From positions 1 through 23,696 of IMG/VR virus record IMGVR_UViG_3300010370_000251: a stretch of DNA of 23,696 nt; one strand, written 5' to 3'. The stretch's first letter is position 1, and every line of letters starts with the position of its first letter. The DNA comes from a virus. Under the pieces are notes generated by a model. That model did no database searches. It was not told the DNA's origin and saw only the letters and a list, made by a program, of their open reading frames with translations. The translations under genes were made by a program, and so were the position numbers. Below, piece after piece: positions 3,790-8,087 of this stretch.

Positions 3790-3818
3790 AATATACATCT
3801 AGAATATATATATGTCAA
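3790..3818 (-). promoter_or_regulatory. Early promoter for the minus-strand operon (sigma-70 consensus)
   Basis: Read on the minus strand, a perfect -35 TTGACA (3818-3813) is followed by a 17-bp spacer and a -10 TATATT (3795-3790). The first gene starts at 3756, leaving a leader of about 27 nt that contains its GGGAG ribosome binding site. Confidence 0.88.
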
Positions 3819-3828
3819 TGGCTTGACA
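3813..3828. promoter_or_regulatory. Palindromic operator formed by two back-to-back -35 boxes
   Basis: TGTCAA-tggc-TTGACA is a perfect 6-bp inverted repeat with a 4-bp centre. Each arm is the -35 box of one of the two divergent promoters, so a dimer bound here would block both. The adjacent Cro/CI-type gene at 3860 is the likely binder; this is inferred from position and symmetry. Confidence 0.6.
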
Positions 3829-3853
3829 GGATAATATATTCATATGGTATATA
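3823..3853 (+). promoter_or_regulatory. Promoter of the HTH gene, probably giving a leaderless mRNA
   Basis: TTGACA (3823-3828) is followed by TATATA (3848-3853) at a 19-bp spacing. Only 6 nt separate TATATA from the ATG at 3860, and no ribosome binding site is present, so transcription would begin at or next to the start codon, as for lambda cI from PRM. The same 6-nt spacing recurs at three late genes. Confidence 0.6.
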
Positions 3854-3859
3854 GATTGC

Positions 3860-4084
3860 ATGATTAGAGGACTTACACAACAGGAGCTGGCACGTAGGAC
3901 TGGTTTTACCCAGCCACGAATCAGTGACTATATGACAGGCAAAAAGGCTCCGGGTGATACCAGCCTTCTCAAGCTCGCAGAGGCGATGGATATGGATCCT
4001 GCGGAACTCAGCAAGCAGTTGATGCTACGAAGGACACTCCGCAAAGGCAAAGCACCGGAACAACCAGAAGTACCGGGCGAATAG
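3860..4084 (+). CDS. Cro/CI-type helix-turn-helix regulator
   Basis: This 74-residue protein is essentially one HTH domain: LTQQELARRTGFTQPRISDYMTGKKAPGDTSLLKLAEAMDM (residues 5-45) has the classic Xre-family spacing, with helix 2 at QQELARRTG and the recognition helix at QPRISDYMTG. The C-terminal 20 residues are basic then Pro-rich and probably disordered. There is no peptidase or dimerisation domain of the lambda CI type, so SOS-induced self-cleavage is unlikely. It is transcribed away from the early operon, and the palindrome at 3813-3828 overlaps both promoters, so it probably represses the early operon and itself. It heads a plus-strand group with the sigma factor. Confidence 0.88.
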   Translation: MIRGLTQQELARRTGFTQPRISDYMTGKKAPGDTSLLKLAEAMDMDPAELSKQLMLRRTLRKGKAPEQPEVPGE

Positions 4085-4111: not shown

Positions 4112-4420
4112 ATGCGACGATGCAACGATTGTGCGAACAGTGTAGTAGATAGTGATGCAGTGTGTACGGCTTGCCGTTTGGCTGAGTGGAAGGATCAGCA
4201 ACAACAGGCAGAGGCAGAGCGCCAAAGACAATATGCGCTGGAGGCTAATAGGGCTGCATATCTTGCCAAGAAGAAGTATATGCGTGATGCGATCAAGGCT
4301 GGTGTTATCACTGCGGTATCGGTTCTGCTTTTCTTGGCTTTCGTTAGTGCCACCCGTGATGCAATGCGGTACGAATGGGAAACCAAGCCAGCACTACTCA
4401 AAGCCAATGGAGTTAAGTGA
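4112..4420 (+). CDS. Zinc-ribbon protein with one transmembrane segment
   Basis: Four cysteines (Cys4, Cys7, Cys18, Cys21; CNDC and CTAC) form a likely zinc ribbon at the N-terminus. Next comes a charged Gln/Glu/Arg-rich helix (about 25-58, probably coiled coil), then one hydrophobic segment (about 63-81, GVITAVSVLLFLAFVSA) and a short tail. The product would be a membrane-anchored cytoplasmic zinc ribbon with the tail outside, or the reverse. No family with a known function is recognised. ATG 4112 has GGAGATAAGAGACA in front; the stop overlaps the GTG of the sigma gene (GTGA), so the two are probably co-translated. Confidence 0.75.
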   Translation: MRRCNDCANSVVDSDAVCTACRLAEWKDQQQQAEAERQRQYALEANRAAYLAKKKYMRDAIKAGVITAVSVLLFLAFVSATRDAMRYEWETKPALLKANGVK

Positions 4421-5235
4421 CACCAAGTAGAACAACCATCAGACAGACGCTCCGGACCCTACAAAGGACACCGGAGCGTTTGTTGTCTCACGATGAGATG
4501 GTACTGCTCCACTCTGGCTGGAAGCACGGCATCATGCAGACAGAGTGCCTAGATGCCATGGTGCGTCATAACATGGGTTTTATTCGTGAGGTCTGCAAGG
4601 TCATCAAGCACAAGGAACACTTTGTGGATGCCTGCCAGTACTGCGTCGAGGGCTTGATTAGAGCAATCGAAAAGTGGGAGCCAGAGCGTGGGTTGCGCTT
4701 CTCGACTTACGCTCATCCGTGGATCTATCAGAAGCTCAGGCGTTATCAGTCTAACCAATACAGAACCATCCGGATTGCCGAACACGCACTTGTAAAATGG
4801 CACAAACTCAAGCGTCATTACGTCATCCTAGAACTCGAATTAAAGCGACCACCGACAGATGAGGAACTATCCGAGCGCAGCGGGATGAGCCTTGAAACCA
4901 TTGACATATGCCGTACCGCAGCAGGCATTGAGCCTGTCAGCATGGACACCCCGGTACAAGGTTCTGAGCTGGTCTTGGGCGATACTGCGGTATTCGGTAG
5001 CACACCATCAGCTGAGGATGAGTACTTTAGCGAGCAGGAAGGTACGCTGTCCGATGCCCTGCTTAGACTCGATGAAGAAACCCGGCAGATGTTAGTGCTG
5101 CATTATGGCTTAGATGGGCGTGTACCGCAGACAATCCACATGGTAGCCAGTCGTTACAGAATGCCACCCGTAGTGGTCAAAGAACGCATCAACAAAGCAT
5201 TGCAGGAACTTAGGAGCATCCATGAAGCATCTTGA
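4417..5235 (+). CDS. Phage-encoded sigma-70 family RNA polymerase sigma factor
   Basis: The 272-residue product has sigma regions 2 to 4 without region 1.1. Region 2 is at about 47-110 (VRHNMGFIREVCKVI, then DACQYCVEGLIRAIEKWEPERGLRFSTYAHPWIYQKLRR). Region 3 (about 115-180) begins RTIRIAEH, and region 4 is at about 212-268 (LLRLDEETRQMLVLHYGLDG, with a C-terminal HTH). Against E. coli RpoD region 2.4 (YATWWIRQAITR) the phage has YAHPWIYQKLRR: the first melting Trp is Pro and the position of T440, which helps read the first -10 base, is Arg. This suggests altered -10 specificity; late genes here carry GATACT rather than TATAAT. The start is GTG with a 4-base overlap. The stop overlaps the next gene by 14 bases. 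Confidence 0.88.
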   Translation: MTPSRTTIRQTLRTLQRTPERLLSHDEMVLLHSGWKHGIMQTECLDAMVRHNMGFIREVCKVIKHKEHFVDACQYCVEGLIRAIEKWEPERGLRFSTYAHPWIYQKLRRYQSNQYRTIRIAEHALVKWHKLKRHYVILELELKRPPTDEELSERSGMSLETIDICRTAAGIEPVSMDTPVQGSELVLGDTAVFGSTPSAEDEYFSEQEGTLSDALLRLDEETRQMLVLHYGLDGRVPQTIHMVASRYRMPPVVVKERINKALQELRSIHEAS

Positions 5236-5581
5236 AGACCGGGAGCAAATTGCCCTTATTACTTGGGTGCGTTTGATGGAGTCTAAACATCCTGAGCTTG
5301 CCACGATCTATCACTGCCCTAACGGCGGACACAGGGATATTCGGACAGCTGCGAAGTTTAAGGCAATGGGTGTGAAGGCGGGTGTGTGGGACATCTTCCT
5401 GCCTGCTCCGTTACCGGGTCTTTATATAGAGATGAAGGCGGGTAAAGGCAGGCTAACACCGGGGCAGGTGTCCTTTAGAGACTCCTTGCTACCGCATGGC
5501 TATTCTTTTGTGGTTGCCTATAGTTGGCATGATGCCGCTAAGGCAATAGCCGATCATGTTGGATTTGACGCTGGGTTATAA
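5222..5581 (+). CDS. VRR-NUC domain nuclease
   Basis: The 119-residue product matches the small stand-alone phage VRR-NUC nucleases: EDREQIALITWVRL, HCPNGGHRD, KFKAMGVKAGVWDIFLPAP (catalytic Asp in VWDIF) and GLYIEMKAGKGRLTPGQVSF (the E-x-K of the PD-(D/E)xK fold), ending VVAYSWHDAAKAIADH. These enzymes cut branched or structured DNA and probably resolve replication or recombination intermediates. ATG 5222 lies inside the sigma gene, giving a 14-base overlap. The catalytic residues are all present, so activity is likely. Confidence 0.9.
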   Translation: MKHLEDREQIALITWVRLMESKHPELATIYHCPNGGHRDIRTAAKFKAMGVKAGVWDIFLPAPLPGLYIEMKAGKGRLTPGQVSFRDSLLPHGYSFVVAYSWHDAAKAIADHVGFDAGL

Positions 5582-5637
5582 CTCGTGGTATATATTTCCT
5601 GTTCTCAAACAGGGAGATTTTCCCAAACCTTATAGAG

Positions 5638-5668
5638 CCGCCTAGCATTTGCCGTGCTGGGCGGTTTT
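5638..5668 (+). terminator. Terminator A of the 5582-5875 array
   Basis: CCGCCTAGCA (5638-5647) pairs completely with TGCTGGGCGG (5655-5664), one pair being T-G, around a 7-nt loop. TTTTGCTTTT follows. It lies 57 bases after the VRR-NUC stop and would end that transcript. A weaker 6-bp hairpin (CCTGTT/AACAGG, 5598-5613) precedes it. Confidence 0.8.
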
Positions 5669-5678
5669 GCTTTTGGGA

Positions 5679-5684
5679 TATAAT
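5679..5684 (+). promoter_or_regulatory. TATAAT box following terminator A
   Basis: A perfect -10 hexamer lies 10 bases beyond the T-run of terminator A. No good -35 is found at 16-18 bp. The surrounding 28 bases (5660-5687) match those around the second TATAAT (5750-5777) at 23 of 28 positions, suggesting a repeated regulatory element; promoter function is inferred. Confidence 0.45.
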
Positions 5685-5690
5685 CTGCTG

Positions 5691-5764
5691 TCGATCTAAT
5701 CGGCTGCTCATGTGATGGAGTACTCGCCCGCCTTGCATATCCTCTGCTTGGCGGGTTTCCTTTT
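5691..5764 (+). ncRNA. Possible small RNA between TATAAT 1 and terminator B
   Basis: If transcription starts about 7 nt after TATAAT (5679-5684) and ends at terminator B, a RNA of about 74 nt results. It has no plausible start codon with a ribosome binding site. The only evidence is the promoter-like box and the terminator; this is a hypothesis. Confidence 0.25.
5727..5764 (+). terminator. Terminator B of the array
   Basis: CCCGCC (5727-5732) pairs with GGCGGG (5750-5755), and GCA (5735-5737) with TGC (5745-5747), across a TT/TT internal loop. TTTCCTTTT follows. The outer stem and T-run are strong enough for an intrinsic terminator. Confidence 0.75.
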
Positions 5765-5768
5765 GGTG

Positions 5769-5774
5769 TATAAT
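5769..5774 (+). promoter_or_regulatory. TATAAT box following terminator B
   Basis: A perfect -10 hexamer 5 bases after the T-run of terminator B, in the same setting as the box at 5679. Transcription from here would meet terminator C after about 57 nt, or read through into the primase gene. Confidence 0.45.
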
Positions 5775-5811
5775 GTGAGTGTTCCTTTCTCTATGGAATA
5801 GGCTTTGCCAG

Positions 5812-5837
5812 CTCCCGGAGTAGCTACCGGGAGTTTT
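5812..5837 (+). terminator. Terminator C of the array
   Basis: CTCCCGG (5812-5818) and CCGGGAG (5827-5833) form a perfect 7-bp stem with an 8-nt loop followed by TTTT. It lies only 38 bases before the primase ATG, so it may act as an attenuator for the replication genes. Confidence 0.7.
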
Positions 5838-5875
5838 CATAGAAGGGGAAACATCATAGAGAAAGTTGATACATC

Positions 5876-6745
5876 ATGGCACTTCCTGCCACTGATGCCG
5901 TTCAGGCTATCGCCTTCCTACGGCATCTATTCAAACCGTATTCAGACGGATTCATCGAAATCCGTCCACTCTCCAAACACAAACCTCATGCTAACCGGAC
6001 AACCTACCGGCTCCCGGAATGCCTAAAAGGTGAAGCCGGGCAAGCACTCAGCCAGCACATCATTAGCCTTGCAATGCGTGGTTATGATGTCTATGTAGGT
6101 GTTTGTCCAAGGGTTGCACCTGAAGGTCCCGGACGCAAGCTGGGTAAAGATGCTATCGAGCAGGTTGGTGCAGTTTGGATTGACCTTGATGCTAAAGTAC
6201 CGGGGAGTAGTCAAGCATTACTTGACAGCTGCGACATCGTGGTAAGTACCGGCAACGGTTGGCACGGTTATAAGCTGAACGCCAAGGTCGTGACGGTATC
6301 TAACCAGCGAGACAGGACAACGCTGGAGGCAAGGATGCGACAGTGGGCAAACCACATCATCCTTGGTACTGACAACGTACAAAACGTAGATCGCATCCTG
6401 CGGGTTCCAGGAACTATCAACTGGAAGGATGTAGACAACCCAAAGCCCGTGACGCTGATAAAGGGCGGAGGCATCAAGCCAACCTACAAGGAATCCCTGT
6501 TGGTTAGACACCTTGGCGATGCTCGGCTTGATGCCCTGCTAGCTTCTGCCAAGCAAGGGCAGCTAGGACGTGCAGAGCCACGCATCCGTCATGCAAGCGG
6601 TAGGATAACCGACCTGCTAGATGTCTTTATGCTTGAGGCTGAGGAAGCCTGTCAGGCGTTTGAAACTAACCCGGCTTGGGAATACAGGCTAGATATCGTC
6701 AAGGCTGACCTGCCTGAGATTTTGGAGTACTACTTTGGAAGATGA
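5876..6745 (+). CDS. RepB-like archaeo-eukaryotic primase (AEP superfamily)
   Basis: The 289-residue product shows the motifs of the RepB/primase-polymerase branch of AEP enzymes. There is a catalytic DxD in AVWIDLDAK (Asp103, Asp105), STGNGWHGY (124-132) with the nucleotide-binding His130, and the NVDRILRVPGTINWK motif (170-184) near the C-terminal end of the core. It would make primers on the phage template. It lacks its own PriCT domain, which is instead at the N-terminus of the next protein, so the two genes look like a split primase-helicase. ATG 5876 has no strong ribosome binding site (GAGAAAG about 11 nt upstream); the preceding leader carries terminator C. The C-terminal 70 residues are helical and not recognised. 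Confidence 0.85.
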   Translation: MALPATDAVQAIAFLRHLFKPYSDGFIEIRPLSKHKPHANRTTYRLPECLKGEAGQALSQHIISLAMRGYDVYVGVCPRVAPEGPGRKLGKDAIEQVGAVWIDLDAKVPGSSQALLDSCDIVVSTGNGWHGYKLNAKVVTVSNQRDRTTLEARMRQWANHIILGTDNVQNVDRILRVPGTINWKDVDNPKPVTLIKGGGIKPTYKESLLVRHLGDARLDALLASAKQGQLGRAEPRIRHASGRITDLLDVFMLEAEEACQAFETNPAWEYRLDIVKADLPEILEYYFGR

Positions 6746-8087
6746 ACCATTCGACATCATGACCTTTACGGGTGGAGTGCCCGACCCGAAGCCAGAGCGG
6801 AGAGAACGCCAGCGTGGAGAGCCTGACGGCACATACACTCATCACAAGCTCATGGAGCGCCATCCGGAAGGGGGAGGCCCGTATGGTGGCAGAGACAACG
6901 CAGTTACGGCGCTCGTTGGTTATCTGCGGGAGCGACAGTTTCACTACGACCTAGCGGTTGAATATGCACAGGATTGGAATCTAAAACATTGCGATCCGCC
7001 ACTACCGGCACACGAGGTAGAGGATAAGGTTTCCCGTGCATGGGCTGAATGGTCGCTTAGTGTGCGAGAGATGTACACCAAGGAGGTTGCAGTCAAAGAC
7101 CTGCTGGCAGACCGTGCTAAAGCTGTAGAGCCTAAGGAACCACGGAAGAAGAAGATTCCATGGGACTGGGACAGGTTGCAAGAGGAAGCAGCCAAGAGTC
7201 GTGACACTGAATGGATAATCCCGCACGTCATAGCACGTCAAGCAATCCACTATTTTGCAGGGCCACCAAGTAGCGGTAAGTCTTGGATGGCTGCCGACCT
7301 TGTTCGTGCAGCTGAGAGCGCCGGGATGTGGATGGGCATCGCTCCCTGCGTCAAGGCAAAGGTCTTGTATGTCAATGAAGAGATGGGCGTGGGTGAATAC
7401 AACAATCGCTTCCACTTGCTCTATCCGGATGCTTGCCGAGGATTGCATTCATTCGTGAATGAAAACATCAGGTTCACGGATCCGGATGACCTGAACGACA
7501 TCGTGGACTTTGTCAAAGAGCAGTCTATTGACATTGTGATTGTTGATACTTTTGTCCGTGTCCACAACCTTGATGAAAACAGCAACTCTGAAATGTCTCA
7601 GCTGTATCAGCATTTCAAAAAGGTAACCGATGCAGGAGCGGCGCTCGTGGTTCTACACCATGCCCGTAAGGGCGCTACAGGTTCACTGGGGCATGAAAGT
7701 ATGCGAGGGGCAGTAGAGATAGCCGCACAGGCAGAAACCGTGCTATCGGTCGAAAACAAGGAAGGGCATTACACGGTCAAGACCGTGAAGCAACGGCGTA
7801 GCCCGTTTGAGAATCAAATCAACTTTGAGTTCCGGATTCATGCCAACTCAGAGACAGACTTGGAAATCAGGCGGATAGATGGCAAGGAAGAAAAGACACT
7901 ACAGGAAGCCATCCACGAGTTCCTTGATCACAATCCTGGCGTTACCAGTCAACAGGTCGCTGATGGCATCAAGAAGCGTAAATCAGACGTTGTGAAGATG
8001 CTTCAAAGTATGGAAGACGAGTTCCAAATCAATGTCATGAATGGACAGAGAGGAGCCAAGTTTTATAGCCCAAGAAGTATGTTTTGA
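6735..8087 (+). CDS. PriCT domain plus RecA-like (RepA/AAA_25) replicative helicase
   Basis: The 450-residue protein has three parts. Residues about 51-105 (GGRDNAVTALVGYLRER to DKVSRAW) form a primase C-terminal (PriCT-1) helical domain. Residues about 160-380 form a RecA-fold ATPase with Walker A GPPSSGKSW (176-184), an NEE motif (214-216), Walker B IVIVDTF (267-273) and VVLHHARKG (305-313). Residues about 386-447 look like a winged helix that ends the protein. It resembles RepA-type hexameric helicases of phages and plasmids. The start is TTG 6735, with GGAG 7 nt upstream and an 11-base overlap with the primase gene, which implies coupled synthesis of the two partners. A repeat-rich region directly after its stop may be the origin it acts on. 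Confidence 0.88.
   Translation: MEDEPFDIMTFTGGVPDPKPERRERQRGEPDGTYTHHKLMERHPEGGGPYGGRDNAVTALVGYLRERQFHYDLAVEYAQDWNLKHCDPPLPAHEVEDKVSRAWAEWSLSVREMYTKEVAVKDLLADRAKAVEPKEPRKKKIPWDWDRLQEEAAKSRDTEWIIPHVIARQAIHYFAGPPSSGKSWMAADLVRAAESAGMWMGIAPCVKAKVLYVNEEMGVGEYNNRFHLLYPDACRGLHSFVNENIRFTDPDDLNDIVDFVKEQSIDIVIVDTFVRVHNLDENSNSEMSQLYQHFKKVTDAGAALVVLHHARKGATGSLGHESMRGAVEIAAQAETVLSVENKEGHYTVKTVKQRRSPFENQINFEFRIHANSETDLEIRRIDGKEEKTLQEAIHEFLDHNPGVTSQQVADGIKKRKSDVVKMLQSMEDEFQINVMNGQRGAKFYSPRSMF

Follow-up and report, generated by a model that had tools for sequence, protein, structure and literature searches.

A predicted bistable RNA leader before a phage primase gene, exchanged between related phages as a cassette

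What is encoded between the nuclease and primase genes of an uncultured bacterial virus, where hairpins alternate with TATAAT-like boxes over a few hundred nucleotides? The original prediction saw an array of three intrinsic terminators alternating with such boxes, which would either produce tiny RNAs or set primase and helicase expression by attenuation. The window, that is, the whole stretch of DNA analysed here, is a 23,696-nt IMG/VR virus record. On the plus strand near the gap, a Cro/CI-like HTH gene is followed by a small gene, a sigma-70-family factor gene, a VRR-NUC-like nuclease gene, the gap itself, a primase-like gene and an AAA_25 helicase-like gene. The four genes closest to the gap are as follows.

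4417..5235, plus strand: phage sigma-70-family factor gene, adjoining the nuclease gene upstream (Pfam Sigma70_r2 2.2e-9, r3 8.4e-6, r4 below the cut-off; phrog_351 8e-38)
5222..5581, plus strand: VRR-NUC-like nuclease gene (phrog_824 7.8e-40; phrog_5702, Holliday junction resolvase, 3.7e-12; VRR_NUC just under the Pfam cut-off)
5876..6745, plus strand: primase-like gene, read from the leader described below (phrog_2478, DNA polymerase/primase, 2.9e-8)
6735..8087, plus strand: AAA_25 helicase-like gene with a PriCT_1 domain, overlapping the primase gene (Pfam AAA_25 2.5e-27)

The helicase-like gene (6735..8087) is presumably co-transcribed with the primase gene. We propose that the last box of the gap is an extended -10 promoter that drives this primase–helicase pair through a bistable leader, that the leader is swapped between phages as a cassette, and that small-RNA cassettes upstream of it are optional; we put the probability of this reading as a whole at roughly two in three.

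Relatives were found in IMG/VR at 79 loci by the nuclease, 68 by the primase and 32 by the sigma factor. The primase alignment against the genome collection returned no relative, and the phage collection held no close one (best primase 31% identical over part of its length; listed capsid rows at 25–34% identity). Integrase, resolvase and ParA domains (PF00589, PF00239, PF13614) were found in 0 of 16 records, which may be incomplete, so that a lysogenic or prophage state is not evident; ParB_N gave weak matches, below the cut-off, in 5 of the 16. The HTH gene looks leaderless (window 3838–3860), with a TATATA-like box six bases 5′ of its ATG, as do its counterparts in many relatives with listed upstream sequence. 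In the window (3798–3860) and in relatives, the region between the HTH gene and a minus-strand operon has TTGACA-type sites together with inverted repeats (GTCAA..TTGAC) and looks like a divergent promoter region, arranged like a lambda-like switch. The HTH proteins are of two types (15 and 16 of 31).

Boxes, terminators and optional units in the gap

We compared 51 distinct nuclease-to-primase gap sequences, of which 48 belong to this phage family; the three left out (L125, L058 and L060) are more distant records without the leader and with gaps of -10 to 10 nt. The 48 gaps contain 47 distinct leaders. Gap lengths are stepped, at 93–104 nt in 27, 192–205 nt in 12 and 294–300 nt in 2 (the window and L098), with the other 7 at 332, 548 or 906–916 nt, and the steps correspond to cassettes set between boxes. 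The features of the gap upstream of the leader in the window are the following.

5577..5582, plus strand: box 1, TATAAC, overlapping the nuclease stop codon (TATAAT at the equivalent place in L098)
5588..5672, plus strand: unit alpha, predicted to give a small RNA (about 85 nt, ends inferred), holding terminator A (fold z -4.63; also in L006 and L098)
5637..5674, plus strand: terminator A, hairpin 5637–5665 (-21.6 kcal/mol, z -4.64), then a T-rich tail
5679..5684, plus strand: box 2, TATAAT, extended -10-like and without a -35
5690..5765, plus strand: unit beta, predicted three-hairpin small RNA, about 76 nt (fold z -3.73)
5726..5765, plus strand: terminator B, hairpin 5726–5756 (-18.5 kcal/mol, z -4.72), then a T-rich tail
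5769..5774, plus strand: box 3, TATAAT, the proposed primase–helicase promoter, with the TTTTGRTG consensus upstream

Much of what the original prediction described is present. TATAAT boxes do follow terminators A and B (5679–5684 and 5769–5774), the 28-mers around them (5660–5687 and 5750–5777) are identical at 23 of 28 positions, and neither box has a -35 hexamer. Terminators A and B are stable hairpins (-21.6 and -18.5 kcal/mol), each beating 200 of 200 shuffles in folding energy, and with their T-rich tails they have the stable hairpin and U-rich tail of intrinsic terminators; the tails are kept in beta units. The features of the array are therefore real, but they make up two different things, the optional units 1 and 2 and a universal primase leader, and box 1 had been overlooked. 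When conservation, which had been named as a check, was examined in relatives, the primase leader and its box were kept in 48 of 48 gaps, whereas the upstream units proved optional.

Only one further TATAAT occurs in the rest of the window (21704, minus strand). A TATAAT lies 92–103 nt 5′ of the primase ATG in all 48 distinct family gaps. TTTTGRTG precedes TATAAT in both of its settings, the end of the nuclease coding sequence and the tail of a terminator; its TG adjoins the hexamer directly, as opposed to lying one base away as in an extended -10. In L081, L087 and L034, the sequence GATGTATAAT recurs on the minus strand, 16 nt after a TTGACA. Judged from its sequence, the context of box 3 appears to fit an extended -10 promoter without a -35. 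G5781, six bases past box 3, is a plausible transcript start, and the leader structure begins at this G in most classes. A simple scan of the stretch gave 5 terminator-like sites against 2.4 ± 1.8 expected and 1 promoter-like site against 3.0, unremarkable on its own; the stretch stands out because it is conserved. The leader and the box are absent from more distant relatives in which the gene order is the same. The boxes may be read by host sigma or by the phage's own sigma factor; relatives without box and leader also have a sigma gene upstream of the nuclease gene, so its presence does not discriminate between the two.

No upstream unit is present in 27 of the 48 gaps, one or both small-RNA units alone are present in 14 (beta alone in 11, alpha alone in 1, L006, and both in 2), and 7 have other or mixed cargo. 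Among the latter, L142 has a beta-like stretch and a tRNA-Thr (ARAGORN, same contig), and L012 has beta with what looks, from its sequence, to be another insert. The gaps of L048, L081, L084, L121 and L073 hold an open frame that is presumably reductase-like, again judged from the sequence; the TGA stops of these frames overlap TGATGTATAATG, the next box. At L096:6247–6318, a tRNA-Thr (TGT) lies in a cassette, between a terminator hairpin and a box. The presence of an insert has no association with leader class (p = 0.75, n = 47). Each upstream unit would thus be an optional cassette made up of its own box, a small RNA and a terminator, and in relatives such cassettes may also carry tRNA or protein genes.

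The leader and beta models were run on 52 loci, hand-picked from those fetched, and strong matches of the beta model R1 were confined to the nuclease–primase gap. The 16-base beta pattern occurs in 28 IMG/VR stretches; among the matches listed, those flanked by a box upstream and a terminator downstream all belong to this family, and the remaining listed matches look like chance. The 5′ hairpin of beta is kept through double-sided changes at two pairs in a 14-row alignment. It is plausible that alpha and beta make small terminated RNAs of about 85 and 76 nt. Of the two tiny RNAs predicted earlier, one of about 74 nt is likewise plausible and the 57-nt one is unsupported, and what recurs in relatives is the pair of cassettes of about 85 and 76 nt. 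A role of the unit RNAs as antisense to the leader was considered and rejected: their computed duplexes reach -33.5 kcal/mol with their own leader and -33.6 with other leaders, indicating no specificity.

Alternative pairings in the primase leader

Downstream of box 3, the gap is occupied by a predicted structured leader with these elements.

5781..5875, plus strand: primase leader RNA, predicted bistable, about 95 nt from the proposed start G5781
5782..5798, plus strand: shared 5′ strand, which enters both alternative folds
5801..5809, plus strand: hairpin H1, GGC-UUU-GCC (GGAC..GUCC in others), near-invariant
5811..5834, plus strand: hairpin H2, the earlier 'terminator C', with loop AGUAGCUA or YUGAUCC
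5835..5850, plus strand: proximal 3′ strand, which with 5782–5798 makes fold S_A (-31.5 kcal/mol) and leaves the start region free
5855..5865, plus strand: distal 3′ strand, which with 5785–5795 makes fold S_B (-31.2 kcal/mol) and ends 10 nt 5′ of the ATG

Hairpin C (5811–5834) does not hold up as a conserved intrinsic terminator. It is a real hairpin and in the window itself UUUU follows it, but 0 of 47 leaders have five or more U in the 8 nt past the stem; hairpin C is part of the primase 5′ leader, where it is named H2. Its loop is AGUAGCUA in 27 of the 47 leaders and YUGAUCC in 20, two unrelated forms (5819–5826 in the window), and the form is independent of leader class (p = 0.44, n = 47). 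A loose text filter found neither loop motif outside the leaders. Of the suggested attenuation of primase and helicase, the regulated leader is retained and termination at hairpin C is not, as the evidence favours two mutually exclusive folds near the translation start.

In the window, the two folds are computed to be nearly isoenergetic (-31.5 and -31.2 kcal/mol), and over the 47 leaders S_B minus S_A averages -1.3 kcal/mol (sd 4.1), with single leaders up to 8.7 apart. The leader thus has computed alternative folds, a trait of riboswitches, and one strand computed to be complementary to two sites of the same transcript, a trait of P4-type control. By sequence the 47 leaders fall into seven classes (II, 11; III, 10; Ia, 7; IV, 7; Ic, 6; V, 3; Ib, 3), and both alternative pairings are kept in all seven. 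With strand boundaries taken from each leader's own best pairing (wrongly placed in some rows of class III, for example L143), the proximal pairing reaches -15.1 kcal/mol within a class and -9.4 across classes, and the distal pairing -16.6 and -7.6; shuffled 3′ strands pair at about -6 kcal/mol. The proximal pairing beats 99% of a leader's own shuffles in 40 of 47 leaders and the distal pairing in 38 of 47.

Most columns of the 5′ strand show two to four Watson–Crick pair types in both folds; column L08 appears as UA, CG, AU and GC in both, and columns L02 and L06 have three or more types. Because exchange spreads identical classes, only about seven classes contribute independent covariation; the leaders of a class are not separate events, and a change common to them is counted many times. 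RNAalifold on a MAFFT alignment of 24 leaders gave only 9 pairs at -2.63 kcal/mol, a poor result that probably reflects misalignment by MAFFT of the 3′ strands of different classes.

The leader model R2 finds the leader in 16 of 16 whole records, in one copy in 14 and in two copies in G013 and G014, and its 42 matches in 52 overlapping sources all lie in the gap before the primase gene. G013 and G014, the contigs of L018 and L040, are long records with two leaders 32–35 kb apart and look like assemblies in which two related phages have been joined. Rfam at its gathering score gave 0 matches in the window and 0 in 11 relatives; by E-value there was none up to E 1 for leaders of classes II, III and IV, and the window had only chance-level ones. 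The leader therefore appears to be an RNA element without an Rfam 15 match, placed to control phage replication genes, and both arms of the switch are supported across classes.

We suggest that box 3, as a -10-type promoter without a -35, would drive the primase–helicase genes, with a transcript starting at about G5781 whose leader of some 95 nt could take either fold. In S_A, the 5′ strand and the proximal strand would close a junction holding H1 and H2 and leave the translation start open; in S_B, the same 5′ strand would pair with the distal strand, and the region just 5′ of the ATG would be covered. S_A could form first, during RNA synthesis, and S_B once the distal strand is present, and the balance between them would set the amount of primase translated. 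We infer the function of the promoter, its start site, the ON/OFF assignment of the folds and the effect on translation. Plain masking of a Shine–Dalgarno site would be a weak effect, because complementarity at the primase start is low (-2.9 kcal/mol in the window, with means of -1.5 for class Ib and -1.6 for class Ic); the distal pairing, if it blocks translation, would cover the start region rather than a strong Shine–Dalgarno. A single weak minus-strand promoter-like site lies at 5882–5853 in the window and, judged by eye, is not evident in other classes.

Exchange of the leader between phages

Leader identity is uncorrelated with that of the flanking genes. Over 990 pairs from 45 leaders, rho is -0.05 against the nuclease and 0.01 against the primase, compared with 0.42 between nuclease and primase; nuclease against the 3′ half of primase gives only 0.13. 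In a sliding control with 90-nt windows (42 leaders), the leader correlates with its neighbours at rho -0.02 and 0.04, other adjacent windows at 0.15–0.81, and the two windows that flank the leader correlate with each other at 0.32; no other 90-nt window tested is as scrambled as the leader. On a primase tree of 44 of the 47 leaders (L036, L121 and L024 were omitted as partial), class requires 29 changes, where the shuffled mean is 29.0 and 131 of 200 shuffles are as low. In five aligned pairs, the class difference begins right after TATAAT and stops at the ATG, with boundaries TATAATGT and ATCATGGC. Related phages would thus swap the leader as a unit with TATAAT and the ATG as its limits, and its strands pair poorly with those of other classes.

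Because these phages recombine throughout, exchange in itself is ordinary. The leader stands out by the degree of its exchange and by its discrete, poorly cross-pairing classes, and full decoupling of a leader from its flanking genes is unusual. Conservation of the leader, both of its pairings, the class structure and the exchange are established by computation. A tie between leader class and HTH repressor type was considered and found no support (p = 0.11, n = 31), and class-specific seeds elsewhere in the contigs were found at no more than background.

What the leader may recognise, and known systems

The following reading extends our best explanation rather than opposing it. RNA could serve as self/non-self recognition, in which 5′ fragments or excess leader RNA pair in trans with 3′ strands of the same class and shut off the primase, so that rare classes gain and classes are traded. 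We regard this as a tentative possibility. The classes are near-orthogonal in pairing, class is random on the primase tree and unlinked to repressor type, and satellite phage P4 likewise controls its replication genes through an RNA with complementarity to two sites (PMC4825925). Any partner would have to be either the leader itself or something outside the phage, since no matching seeds occur elsewhere in the contigs. Set against this are the prophage state that is not evident in the 16 records and the fact that cassette exchange alone could scramble the classes. In a stronger form, which we consider rather doubtful, the leader would act as an identity tag made of RNA: seven or more near-orthogonal two-state switches, together with two interchangeable H2 loops, would tell co-infecting phages of the same class from those of another and set primase accordingly, and the tag would be kept diverse by rare-class advantage and traded as a cassette of about 95 nt. 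If true, this would be a self/non-self system built from an mRNA leader alone.

The leader could instead be a constitutive, stabilising 5′ structure without regulation, and its scrambling would then come from ordinary homologous recombination in the conserved sequences that flank it. The whole region recombines, as the rho of 0.13 between nuclease and the 3′ half of primase indicates, and the cassette flanks are short conserved sequences. However, both competing helices are kept in every class where one stable helix would suffice, and the leader is scrambled beyond every other 90-nt window tested, so we are sceptical of this explanation. Either way, the leaders form a natural set of near-orthogonal switches that lets RNA recognition between co-infecting phages, or functionless exchange, be tested directly.

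Two further readings place the signal in a bound partner. In the first, a small molecule bound by the S_A junction (H1 and H2) would open the primase start; mutually exclusive folds, a conserved junction with a near-invariant H1 and a position directly before the start codon are what such a riboswitch would have, but the lack of an Rfam match, the two unrelated forms of the H2 loop and a class exchange left without a reason make it unlikely. Similarly improbable is control by a replication protein, for example the primase or the helicase, that binds its own mRNA in the manner of T4 gp32. The downstream gene is a replication gene, an H-type pseudoknot between the first-hairpin loop and the distal strand can be drawn by hand, and gp32 binds to a leader that contains a pseudoknot and represses its own mRNA (PMC535899). 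A class-specific primase contact is nevertheless unlikely because leader class does not track primase, although a protein could still bind H1 or H2 alone. The array reading, in which all three boxes give tiny terminated RNAs and hairpin C is a terminator, fits hairpins A and B and the UUUU past hairpin C in the window, but it is highly improbable given that relatives have no U-run there and that the stretch reads into the primase gene in 48 of 48 gaps.

A search of open-licence papers found no phage primase leader of this kind, which is weak evidence of novelty given that scope. Several known systems share parts of the arrangement with our proposed bistable, exchanged leader. PeSL are cassettes of an early promoter and a stem-loop set between genes, which mediate shuffling. 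In the gaps compared here, the cargo varies between boxes, and shuffling is shown for the leader. The difference is that the units here carry apparent small RNAs, that the last is an exchanged, predicted bistable mRNA leader, and that the phage is not T4-like. The PeSL of T4-type phages are described as short units of promoter and hairpin or terminator between genes, as seen here, that are thought to aid gene shuffling (PMC4503421). T4 gene 32 has, like our phages, a structured 5′ leader on a phage replication gene, whereas the gp32 leader consists of a pseudoknot and unstructured repeats, and the account used describes no two-fold switch or class exchange (PMC535899). Phages such as Melnitz carry glutamine riboswitches, an example of phage-borne regulatory RNA (PMC9004378). 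In contrast to those, the leader here has no Rfam relationship.

The alpha gene of satellite phage P4 is a primase–helicase gene. In P4 immunity (CI RNA, seqA and seqC), one RNA strand is complementary to two sites and controls replication genes (PMC4825925). P4 acts through termination of transcription and uses a processed RNA, whereas the leader here is known from computed pairing and has a different strand order. In the ColIb-P9 plasmid system, leader structure controls translation of the replication gene repZ. For RNAI of I-complex plasmids, a few base changes in the regulatory RNA decide compatibility (PMC10724649). RNAI is an antisense RNA, whereas the phage leader is a sense RNA and, judged by eye, has no conserved antisense promoter. 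Extrachromosomal mycobacterial prophages are likewise reported to use RNA-based replication and incompatibility (PMC7157519). In our phages, the exchange of near-orthogonal classes suggests that there may be RNA–RNA specificity between phages, like that of P4 immunity RNA or plasmid RNAI.
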